DNA of 53,817 nucleotides from positions 1 to 53,817 of the forward strand of contig NZ_JADFAJ010000029.1 in the NCBI RefSeq assembly GCF_015665295.1, written 5' to 3'. Shown here one piece after another: positions 16,074-18,077 of this stretch (positions within the stretch are counted from its first letter, which is position 1; each line of letters opens with the position of its first letter). The translations under genes and the position numbers were made by a program. Under the pieces are notes generated by a model. That model was not told the origin of the DNA. It made no database searches and worked only from the letters and a program-made list of their open reading frames with translations. The stretch comes from Maricaulis sp. GTDB taxonomy: Bacteria; Pseudomonadota; Alphaproteobacteria; Caulobacterales; Maricaulaceae.

Positions 16074-16541
16074 ATGGGCATCAATATGGGTCTGACCGAC
16101 GCACAACGGGAAGCGATGGCCAAGGCTGTGACGGCCGTGTTGGCGGACACCTATGCGCTTTATTTCAAGACGCATGTCTACCACTGGAACGTCACCGGAC
16201 CGCGCTTCCACGATCTGCACGCTCTGTTCGAGACGCAGTACAATGAATTGTGGATGGCCACTGATCTGATTGCCGAGCGTATTCGCGCGCTCGATGTCGT
16301 CGCGCCGCGTTCCTATGCCGAAATGACCGAAGCGGCCGCCATCAAGTCCGGCGGTGATGCGACGGACGCCAACGACATGCTGCGTGACCTGCTCAAAGGC
16401 CATGAGACCGTCGTCGCCACGATCCGCAAGGCGCTGGCGCTGGCGAGCGAGCATGGCGATGAAGCCACGGCCGATGTGCTGACCCCGCGTCTGACCGAGC
16501 ATGAGAAGTCGGCCTGGATGCTGCGATCGACGATCGGCTGA
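16074..16541 (+). CDS. dps: Dps family ferritin-like DNA-protection protein
   Basis: This 155-aa subunit belongs to a dodecameric mini-ferritin that oxidises Fe(II) with peroxide and can bind DNA. Ferroxidase ligands at the dimer interface are seen in KTHVYHWNVTGPRFHDLHAL and ETQYNELWMATDLIAERI. ATG 16074 has AAGGAG 7 nt upstream. A weak promoter reading TTGGAA (15994-15999), 17 bp, CTAAAC (16017-16022) lies upstream. A strong terminator follows at 16581. The gene faces the putative small RNA tail to tail. Confidence 0.95.
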   Translation: MGINMGLTDAQREAMAKAVTAVLADTYALYFKTHVYHWNVTGPRFHDLHALFETQYNELWMATDLIAERIRALDVVAPRSYAEMTEAAAIKSGGDATDANDMLRDLLKGHETVVATIRKALALASEHGDEATADVLTPRLTEHEKSAWMLRSTIG

Positions 16542-16580: not shown

Positions 16581-16609
16581 AGCCCCGGTGTTCGCACCGG
16601 GGCTTTTTC
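16581..16609 (+). terminator. Rho-independent terminator of dps
   Basis: A perfect 10-bp stem AGCCCCGGTG / CACCGGGGCT with a TTCG tetraloop is followed by TTTT. It lies 40 bp after the dps stop. Confidence 0.95.
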
Positions 16610-16632: not shown

Positions 16633-16820
16633 AAAAAAAAGCCCCGGCTCCTCGGAGCCGGGGCAGTCATTGTGATGCGGGCCGGGGTAGCCCGAAAGAA
16701 ATGGCGCCGGGTCCTAAAGGGGAGGAGAGGGACCCGGCGCAAATTTGCGCGCCCGAATGGGGAGGAGGGGCGCACAAAACTCAGATGGGGAGATCCGAGG
16801 AGCGGCGTGATCGCCGCGTC
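16633..16820 (-). ncRNA. Putative trans-acting sRNA with repeated anti-Shine-Dalgarno loops
   Basis: Read on the minus strand there are consecutive hairpins. One is GCGGCG/CGCCGC (16802-16817). One has a 7-bp stem at 16780-16786/16793-16799 with loop CTCCCC. One has an 8-bp stem at 16747-16754/16768-16775 with loop CTCCTCCCCATTC. One has a perfect 11-bp stem at 16704-16714/16730-16740 with a 15-nt loop containing CTCCTCCCC. A short hairpin near 16683-16694 follows. Last comes a terminator with a perfect 10-bp stem (16641-16664) and eight T (16633-16640). The loops are complementary to strong ribosome-binding sites. Alphaproteobacterial CCUCCUCCC-loop RNAs are known; membership of a named family is not claimed. 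The 5' end is uncertain and may reach about 16878. Confidence 0.78.
16641..16664 (-). terminator. Terminator hairpin of the putative sRNA
   Basis: The minus strand reads GCCCCGGCTC, CGAG, GAGCCGGGGC and then TTTTTTTT (plus-strand A run 16633-16640). The stem is perfect. No protein gene on the minus strand ends here; the nearest upstream one (LysR) stops 520 bp away. The terminator therefore belongs to an untranslated transcript. Confidence 0.92.
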
Positions 16821-16870
16821 GGGGGTGTATATGTGTGATTGTTGCCGGCAGCGGAAGCGCCATGGCGGCA

Positions 16871-16901
16871 TGTCGGTTATGCGAAAACGCAATAACTGAC
16901 A
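16871..16901. repeat. 31-bp near-perfect inverted repeat upstream of the sRNA
   Basis: The arms TGTCGGTTATGCG and CGCAATAACTGACA flank AAAA. They differ from perfect symmetry by one mismatch and one extra base. The repeat lies 7 bp inside a minus-strand TTGACC (16908-16913), which could be a -35 element for the small RNA; a 17-bp spacer then gives GCGTTT as a poor -10 within the repeat. It could be an operator overlapping that promoter, or a further hairpin at the RNA's 5' end. Confidence 0.5.
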
Positions 16902-16966
16902 CATTTAGGTCAAGCGTTGCTGCATTGTTGCCACAATTCAGGGCGGGGCGTCGCAGTCGGGCCGCC

Positions 16967-17182
16967 GTGTCGCGCGCCACGGGTGATATTCGCCAGGTCG
17001 ACGAGCGCAGCACGCCACCGTCCATGCCGAGGGGCGCGACGCGGCCCGTTGCTTTGCCCAAGGTGACAAGGCCGGCGCCGAAGCCGCTATCAGCCGCTAT
17101 CAGCCGCATGGAAGCCGCTTCAGCGACGGTGGTGCAGCTGCTTGACCAGCTGATCGGCGAGCTCGAAGCCCCGACCGCCTGA
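16967..17182 (+). CDS. Possible small protein, unrecognised
   Basis: An open frame of about 71 codons starts from GTG 16967 (ATG 17024 or 17110 are alternatives). It ends with an amphipathic helix, MEAASATVVQLLDQLIGELE, whose codons are strongly GC at third positions. The N-terminal part is basic and unremarkable. No ribosome site is convincing. A 10-bp sequence (CCGCTATCAG) is directly repeated near 17090-17110. The frame ends 1 bp before the convergent LysR gene's stop. It may be non-coding. Confidence 0.28.
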   Translation: MSRATGDIRQVDERSTPPSMPRGATRPVALPKVTRPAPKPLSAAISRMEAASATVVQLLDQLIGELEAPTA

Positions 17183-17183
17183 T

Positions 17184-18077
17184 CTAGCTCTGCCAGCGAC
17201 GCGCCTGCTCGATCAGGAAATCCCGGAAGGCGACGATCCGGCGGGAGCCGCGAAGCTCGCTTGGATAGACGAAATAGACCTCGAAATCAGGGCCATCGAG
17301 GTCGGGAAGCACGCGCGTGAGATTCTTGTTCTCACGGGCGACATAGTCAGGCAGGGCGGCAATGCCCATGCCCGCTTCGACGGCCTTCATAACCCCGTAG
17401 ATCGTATTGACCTCGATCACCGCCGGGCGCGGCGCCGCACCCTCTTCGCGACCGGCCTTTGCGGCCCAGTCGAGGCCGGGGATCGGGGCCAGCTGTGGCG
17501 GGCCGTAATAGATGATGGCGTGATCGTCGAGTTCGGAGGGCGTGGCCGGCGACCCCTTCCGCTCGATATAGTTGTGGCTGGCATAAAGATGTTGCCGCAC
17601 TGACAGCAGCTTGCGCTGGACGAGATCATTCTGGGTCGAGGGCCAGGGGCGGATACCGACCTCGGCTTCCAGGCCTGCGAGGTCCAGCTCATGATCATCC
17701 AGCATCAGGCGGATACGGATATTGGGGTACTCATCGTGAAACTCGGCCAGGCGTGGTGCCAGCCAGATCGCGCCGAGCGCGGTCGGCGCTGTCACTTTCA
17801 ATTCCCCGGAGGGTTCGTCGCGGGCGTCATGGACGTGGGCCTCGGCGATCGCCACTTTCGAGGCAATCTCGTGCGCGGCGCCATACAGCAGATTACCCGG
17901 CTCGGTGGGAATAAGGCCGCGCGCGTGACGGTGGAAAAGTGTGACGCCGAGATCATCCTCAAGCGCCGCGATCTGCCGGCTGACGGCCGATTGCGACAGG
18001 CCTAGCATTTCCGCCGCCTTGGTCAGAGATCCGGCCTGCGCCGCAGCGTGAAACGTCTTCAGCTTGTCCCAGTCCAT
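17184..18077 (-). CDS. LysR family transcriptional regulator
   Basis: The 297-aa product has an N-terminal winged helix-turn-helix (about residues 1-60; FHAAAQAGSLTKAAEMLGLS then QSAVSRQIAALEDDLGVTLF). A LysR substrate-binding domain follows (about 90-290), with SGELKVTAPTALGAIWLAP at its start and AVEAGMGIAALPDYVA near the effector cleft. The start MDWDKL at 18077 gives the canonical N-terminus; the longer open frame upstream overlaps the DUF547 gene. No divergent target gene adjoins it; all neighbours upstream run the same way. The effector is unknown. Confidence 0.92.
   Translation of the reverse strand: MDWDKLKTFHAAAQAGSLTKAAEMLGLSQSAVSRQIAALEDDLGVTLFHRHARGLIPTEPGNLLYGAAHEIASKVAIAEAHVHDARDEPSGELKVTAPTALGAIWLAPRLAEFHDEYPNIRIRLMLDDHELDLAGLEAEVGIRPWPSTQNDLVQRKLLSVRQHLYASHNYIERKGSPATPSELDDHAIIYYGPPQLAPIPGLDWAAKAGREEGAAPRPAVIEVNTIYGVMKAVEAGMGIAALPDYVARENKNLTRVLPDLDGPDFEVYFVYPSELRGSRRIVAFRDFLIEQARRWQS

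Follow-up and report, generated by a model that had tools for sequence, protein, structure and literature searches.

We found that the 53,817-nucleotide stretch of Maricaulis sp. DNA analysed here in full (contig NZ_JADFAJ010000029.1, hereafter the window) carries, on its minus strand, a predicted small RNA (sRNA) of ~190 nt that exposes three C-rich loops and lies behind the gene for a LysR-type regulator of the LsrB/VtlR type. We consider it probable that this RNA, which combines the position of AbcR1 with the body of NfeR1, acts in trans by blocking ribosome-binding sites and that the LsrB-type protein encoded next to it activates it. The observations that carry this reading are the fold, the covariation of stems around retained loops, the spacing between box and promoter, the linkage to the LysR gene within the order and the orthology of that gene; we infer transcription, LysR binding, the direction of the effect and the targeting.

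The elements of the RNA follow one another along the minus strand in this order:

16822-16633, minus strand: predicted sRNA of ~190 nt, its start placed from a -10-like hexamer, supported by fold, alignment and terminator
16820-16800, minus strand: hairpin H0 at the 5' end, from folding
16799-16780, minus strand: hairpin H1, 7 bp with one G-U, loop CUCCCC at 16792-16787, from folding
16778-16744, minus strand: hairpin H2, 11 bp with one G-U, loop CUCCUCCCCAUUC containing CUCCUCCCC (16767-16759), from folding and covariation
16740-16704, minus strand: hairpin H3, 11 perfect bp, loop CUCUCCUCCCCUUUA containing CUCCUCCCC (16727-16719), from folding and covariation
16703-16668, minus strand: weak hairpin between H3 and the terminator, from folding
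16664-16633, minus strand: intrinsic terminator, a 10-bp stem (16664-16641) followed by T8 (16640-16633), from a terminator scan

The first-pass annotation of this DNA had described two loops with CUCCUCCCC, one with CUCCCC and a T8 terminator on the minus strand, all of which we read directly and recovered on refolding. Its stem lengths of 11 perfect bp (H3) and 7 bp with one wobble (H1) stood, H2 had to be lengthened from 8 bp to 11 bp with one G-U, and H0 and the weak hairpin were additions to it. The minimum free energy (MFE) of 16820-16636 on the minus strand was -97 kcal/mol (z -8.75), with none of 200 shuffles equally stable. The plus strand also folded stably (z -5.65, again 0/200 shuffles), as inverted repeats would be expected to. 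The anti-Shine-Dalgarno (anti-SD) bases of the three loops were unpaired with a probability of at least 0.988, and the three apical anti-SD loops on stems of at least 6 bp are to be set against 1000 dinucleotide shuffles, 994 of them with no such loop and 6 with a single one. We regard a minus-strand multi-hairpin RNA with three exposed C-rich loops as a confirmed, real feature of this sequence. A protein-coding reading was rejected, as the overlapping open reading frames, which we take to be spurious, run antisense through dps or across the hairpins; in the RNA alignment of 19 rows, close relatives differ by single-base insertions and deletions.

This alignment comprised 18 sequences of the genus and one of a sister genus (G041). 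A DNA search had matched 14 of 41 genomes, namely its own and 13 more from within the genus, with matches that covered the terminator alone in three cases (the sole match of G013 and the second matches of G001 and G012). Upon reading behind the LysR gene itself, we found the RNA in 18 of 19 genus genomes, 13 times directly behind the gene and 5 times past an inserted frame on the opposite strand; in the 19th, G013, the contig stops 421 nt past LysR. H2 and H3 were present in all 19 rows, and their stems varied (GUGCGCC/GGCGCGC, GCAUACC/GGUAUGC and GCACACC/GGUGUGC, also GCGCCGGGUCC, GCGCCGGAUCC and GCGCCGGCUUC). Across the 9 distinct rows per stem, in a hand-set register, 98% of H2 and 97% of H3 cells were paired. 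Double-change cells numbered 14 in H2 (shuffle mean 3.9) and 10 in H3 (shuffle mean 2.6), values that were reached in 0 of 2000 shuffles each, although relatedness among the rows is not accounted for in this shuffling. From the unedited alignment, RNAalifold predicted 23 pairs, of which 9 showed double changes. The compensatory changes called for by the first-pass annotation were thus found, and its proposal of a non-coding RNA with preserved single-stranded anti-SD loops held, as the stems change yet pair and the loops stay. By eye, an H1-like hairpin was seen in only 11 of the 19 rows, 7 times with the loop CUCCCC, indicating that the three-loop form is a feature of the lineage and that H2 and H3 are the core; per row, two to four anti-SD motif clusters were counted.

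Of 150 genomes of the order, 12, from two genera, were matched by a model of H2 and H3; 11 of these belong to its training set and G547 was new. The fetched flank included LysR for 10 of these 12 matches, among them G547, and in G001 and G002 LysR lies ~1.6-1.7 kb from the RNA, beyond the inserted frame. Weaker matches behind LysR were obtained at L068, L069, L071 and L072 (31.7-22.5 bits; 96 sources searched). A second weak match in three genomes was discarded, since reading two of them (L225 and L223) showed it to be where an MCP-type gene ends. At L225 (~1501-1579), this gene ends in a terminator with the loop CUCUCCCCCC, preceded by UCUCCCCCC, and is possibly another anti-SD-like 3' end; the model also matched weakly in L223 and L224, all three being Maricaulis. 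In L061 (G011), the promoter-like block and the RNA are duplicated in tandem downstream of lsrB, with copies that differ in the H3 loop.

The gene upstream of the RNA ends ~360 nt before the predicted RNA start:

17184..18077 (including the stop codon), minus strand: LysR-type regulator of 297 aa (MDWDKL...), LsrB/VtlR orthologue by PDB match and trxB synteny

The best PDB match of the encoded protein (17187-18077) was 9hh1 (E 3e-79, the next at 1.6e-28), the reported structure of A. tumefaciens LsrB (PMC11975290). The gene is singular within its own genome (665 bits compared to 120 for the next), and it had matches at E<=1e-55 in 226 of 385 genomes of the class. We examined 127 loci, namely 19 of the genus, 30 of the rest of the order and 78 of the rest of the class, the last made up of 29 best matches (several from one family) and 49 chosen by hand, about one per family, among the matches listed; "order" denotes the grouping of the search tool, as NCBI assigns Maricaulis to Maricaulales and Hyphomonas to Hyphomonadales. 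With a trxB query taken from one of these loci (L116), trxB was found upstream of LysR and in the same orientation in 66 of the 78 class loci (within 420 nt in 65 and at 1132 nt in L115), in 10 of the 30 order loci and in none of the 19 genus loci, trxB not being adjacent in Maricaulis. The order trxB-vtlR-abcR1/2 is that reported for A. tumefaciens (PMC7486931). From these matches, we take the regulator to be an LsrB/VtlR orthologue, with LsrB as its nearest relative among LysR proteins of solved structure. The equivalents of LsrB C144 and C273 (residues 140 and 270) are valine in 19/19 genus loci, and among the 78 class loci the C273 equivalent is never a cysteine and the C144 equivalent is one in 5. 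Separately, the C144 equivalent is a cysteine in 22 of the 30 other order loci, and at L087 (G023:C3:101918-102805) the LysR gene carries one internal TAA, with the anti-SD motif still present behind it.

Directly before the RNA, we found a conserved promoter-like block with a candidate LsrB site:

16870..16882, minus strand: LsrB-type box GCATAACCGACAT, one mismatch to GCAT-N3-TG-N3-T, aligned GCAT in 19/19 rows
16852..16857, minus strand: -35-like CTTCCG, weak, CT invariant in 19/19 rows
16829..16834, minus strand: -10-like ACATAT, 17 nt past the -35-like hexamer, ATA in 19/19 rows

The spacing from GCAT to the -10-like ATA and the -35-like CT was fixed in 19/19 rows, and the distance between LysR gene and RNA varies. 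As the box was picked by hand per row among several GCAT, its presence in all rows is partly by construction, which does not affect the spacing in this way; a second GCAT lies ~32 nt upstream in many rows. GGAAC, a consensus element of sigma-EcfG promoters, was absent from the 171 nt upstream of the RNA. With a start at 16822, the predicted box would lie at -60 to -48, close to the GCAT-N3-TG-N3-T reported at -61 to -49 of S. meliloti abcR1 together with CTTGAC-N17-CTATAT (PMC8844928). The nfeR1 promoter has an upstream LsrB site of the form TGCA-N6-GCAT (PMC10746234), and the M. maris box TGCATAGCTGGCAT fits both patterns. Boxes within 200 nt behind LysR were found in 11/19 genus loci (reverse strand 0, shuffle mean 1.5), 18/30 order loci (reverse 1, shuffle mean 1.8) and 32/78 class loci (reverse 2, shuffle mean 4.2, max 9). 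Since LysR lies upstream on the same strand and ends ~360 nt before the predicted start, the RNA could be processed from the 3' untranslated region of the LysR mRNA and lack a promoter of its own. We hold this to be unlikely: in five genus genomes (G001, G002, G005, G007 and G009), an opposite-strand open frame of 467-583 codons, counted stop to stop, separates LysR and RNA, which, like the promoter-like block, argues for the RNA's own promoter. In the window, a plus-strand frame of 115 aa (16835-17182) that lies across from the 3' flank of LysR looks, by eye, like the last part of this separating frame and is perhaps a gene remnant.

The three hairpins correspond to a described design. The first-pass annotation could not match the multi-loop layout to any described family, and indeed no Rfam family reached its gathering score in the window; yet three anti-SD hairpins are the layout of alpha-r14 (NfeR1), in which each of the three loops carries CCUCCUCCC unchanged (PMC10746234). 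Like the Maricaulis RNA, alpha-r14/NfeR1 (RF02344; Sinorhizobium and other Rhizobiales) has three hairpins, each with an unpaired anti-SD loop on a variable stem. Its promoter has an LsrB site upstream, which the predicted Maricaulis box and its spacing would fit. Unlike in alpha-r14, CCUCCUCCC is not found in all loops here: the loops of H1 and H3 read CUCCCC and UCUCCUCCCC, and CCUCCUCCC is obtained in H2 alone, once the closing C is counted in. The RF02344 model scored 33.4 bits against a gathering score of 58.8, and up to 40.1 bits among the 18 relatives scanned. Moreover, NfeR1 measures 122 nt by its listed coordinates compared to ~190 nt for the Maricaulis RNA, which has a first loop shortened to CUCCCC, an extra 5' hairpin and a separate terminator and which, unlike NfeR1, sits right behind the LsrB-type gene. 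In this location, and in an LsrB-type box at nearly equal distance from the start, it resembles AbcR1 (alpha-r15); AbcR, however, has two anti-SD motifs in three stem loops (PMC7143759), compared with three anti-SD hairpin loops here. The ar15 model (RF02345) was not among the 27 Rfam matches up to E 10 in the window, and a search of 190 genomes with it was uninformative, as it gave no match even in the positive controls. As regards Hfq binding, the genome encodes Hfq and the predicted RNA ends in a T8 tail.

Cuckoo RNAs are reported to consist of neighbouring hairpins, two to four in number, that each carry CCUCCUCCC in the loop. The adjacent arrangement is present here, with CUCCUCCC in two of three loops and CUCCCC in the third; SmelA075 and SmelA099, with three and four hairpins (PMC3927594), and CcsR1-4 (RF02791) likewise have adjacent hairpins with CCUCCUCCC-type loops. 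A similar loop motif and a sub-threshold CcsR1 match of 30.3 bits, rising to 36.4 bits in a relative, would suit a CcsR/CIN1-type cuckoo RNA, that is, a stress RNA released by cleavage from a DUF1127 mRNA that is transcribed from an RpoH-type promoter, as in Rhodobacter. We consider this improbable, as the match falls short of the cut-off of 65.3, no DUF1127 gene was matched in the genome (by a search whose control was positive in 1/14 genomes, E. coli) and the RNA has an LsrB-type box, a promoter-like block and linkage to LysR. Three-loop anti-SD RNAs and LsrB-controlled anti-SD RNAs are both already known; our literature search found no report of such an RNA in Maricaulis, although the listing of the cuckoo family may include M. 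maris.

The linkage to LysR extended beyond the genus. Within 350 nt behind LysR, the anti-SD motif occurred in 12/19 genus loci, against none on the reverse strand and a mean of 4.0 in shuffles, and in 23/30 order loci, against 2 on the reverse strand and a mean of 3.5 (max 7) in shuffles; it occurred behind none of 7 LysR paralogues of the window's own genome. The seven genus misses were the window itself, whose loops start beyond 350 nt, the five loci with the inserted frame and G013; those in the order were L067, L070, L073, L075, L077, L078 and L080. The order hit L068 counts via an unrelated repeat, its RNA-like hairpins starting at ~375. In 29 order loci we counted no motif cluster in 7, one in 12, two in 9 and three in 1, where the counts of L068 and the third cluster of L092 are not RNA loops. 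A motif within a hairpin loop was found in 12/19 genus loci (reverse 0, shuffle 0.8), 14/30 order loci (reverse 0, shuffle 0.6) and 13/78 class loci (reverse 0, shuffle mean 3.4, max 7). This explicit stem test replaced a strict local-MFE test (41/127 downstream, 2/127 on the reverse strand, 46/635 shuffles, 5/126 upstream), which had missed hairpins visible by eye. Furthermore, 15 of 19 class loci, hand-picked largely for a visible terminator, matched the SorX or suhB models of Rfam (some also SorY), all below gathering score, on the LysR strand and 173-309 nt behind LysR; AbcR is reported to have partial homology to the suhB model (PMC7143759). At Hyphomonas L028, L030 and L032, and at L031, L089 and L090, we noticed by eye a nested layout behind LysR, in which a hairpin with a UUCCUCC-type loop and a UUUCCUCCCCC stretch stand inside a larger stem, followed by a terminator.

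On its other side, the RNA faces dps:

16074..16541, plus strand: dps, convergent neighbour, not judged part of the unit

The nearest named relative of this Dps is that of M. maris (97% identity), and a terminator-like hairpin lies 3' of the gene at 16582-16608 (by eye; absent from the list of the terminator scanner). The first-pass annotation had placed the layout next to dps, which we rejected as the organising neighbour: dps was in the fetched flank of 9 order loci with the motif and absent from that of the other 14 of 23. The adjacency of dps looks incidental, and LysR is the neighbour that matters. The convergent genes with back-to-back terminator-like hairpins could be taken to mean that there is no sRNA here, merely a GC-rich hairpin array that terminates or insulates between them; the retention of loops while stems covary, the fixed spacing of box and -10-like element and those 14 loci make this very unlikely.

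As to how the RNA would work, we favor control by its neighbour and action on ribosome-binding sites. The LysR protein would bind the GCAT box ~48-60 nt before the start and recruit RNA polymerase, leading to transcription from the RNA's own promoter. The three open loops, as putative copies of the anti-SD sequence of 16S rRNA, could then pair, one loop at a time, with the ribosome-binding site of a target mRNA and lower its translation, and they may be redundant by analogy with NfeR1, whose three loops are reported to act redundantly on mRNAs (PMC7143759). Sites of the form GGGAGGA-N4-11-ATG numbered 49 in the genome compared to 7 for the backward pattern, and duplex energies were computed for 12 with internal structure ignored; as these counts mainly reflect ordinary Shine-Dalgarno sites, we name no target. 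C-rich loops might instead act as a sponge that captures G-rich small RNAs, since in Caulobacter the G/A-rich part of CrfA forms base pairs with SisA-D at their UUUCCUCCCU core (PMC12559287), but the reported action of the NfeR1 loops on mRNAs renders this highly improbable. Least probable of all is a general-stress RNA under sigma-EcfG like Caulobacter GsrN, where a C-rich loop serves as the seed for pairing to mRNA leaders (PMC5869019) and to which dps nearby might point, as GsrN, compared by its description, has one C-rich 5' loop, a sigma-EcfG promoter and a location mostly near general stress response genes, and the 171 nt upstream of the RNA lack the GGAAC element.

Several observations weigh against an LsrB-activated, ribosome-binding-site-blocking RNA. 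The LysR protein has no cysteine, so that redox sensing via C144/C273, as published for LsrB, cannot apply, and one paper reports that AbcR expression in S. meliloti does not involve LsrB (PMC7486931, contrary to PMC8844928). The window's own box is one base off and fails the strict box pattern, and a promoter scanner gave no consensus sigma-70 site upstream of the RNA, where the hexamer resembling a -35 element is a poor one. Pairs that show a double change numbered 5 in H2 and 3 in H3, counts that 21 and 179 of the 2000 shuffles also attained; for further pair types the stems were at shuffle level (reached by 1295 for H2 and 1294 for H3). The motif and box patterns were chosen after the loci had been read, and in the rest of the class the motif, at 18/78 (reverse 1, shuffle mean 10.7, max 18), was not above shuffles; there, the bare motif is at chance, while hairpins and boxes are above shuffles. 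Finally, the full 9-nt loop complement occurs shortly before an ATG once in the genome, equal to the backward control (1; scrambled 2).

More tentatively, the LsrB-type activator with an anti-SD RNA right behind it may be an ancient alphaproteobacterial unit that has grown by the addition of hairpins, from one to two to three loops, or to four in those Maricaulis whose terminator loop is taken into account. AbcR (alpha-r15) and NfeR1/cuckoo (alpha-r14) would then be two outcomes of one ancestral lsrB-linked RNA, with Maricaulis keeping an intermediate. The terminator loop of G010, G006 and G016 (L049, L050 and L051) is CUCCCC-like and a possible fourth anti-SD loop. Such an intermediate would combine the address and switch of AbcR with the body of NfeR1. 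Irrespective of this history, the Maricaulis RNA would tie two well-studied groups of anti-SD RNAs of Alphaproteobacteria, AbcR and NfeR1, to one activator and one locus. As no Rfam call was made at cut-off and yet the motif stands behind LysR in 23 of 30 order loci, a broad riboregulator may be unannotated there, and Maricaulis would be a non-pathogenic genus for testing target choice by an RNA with several near-identical loops.
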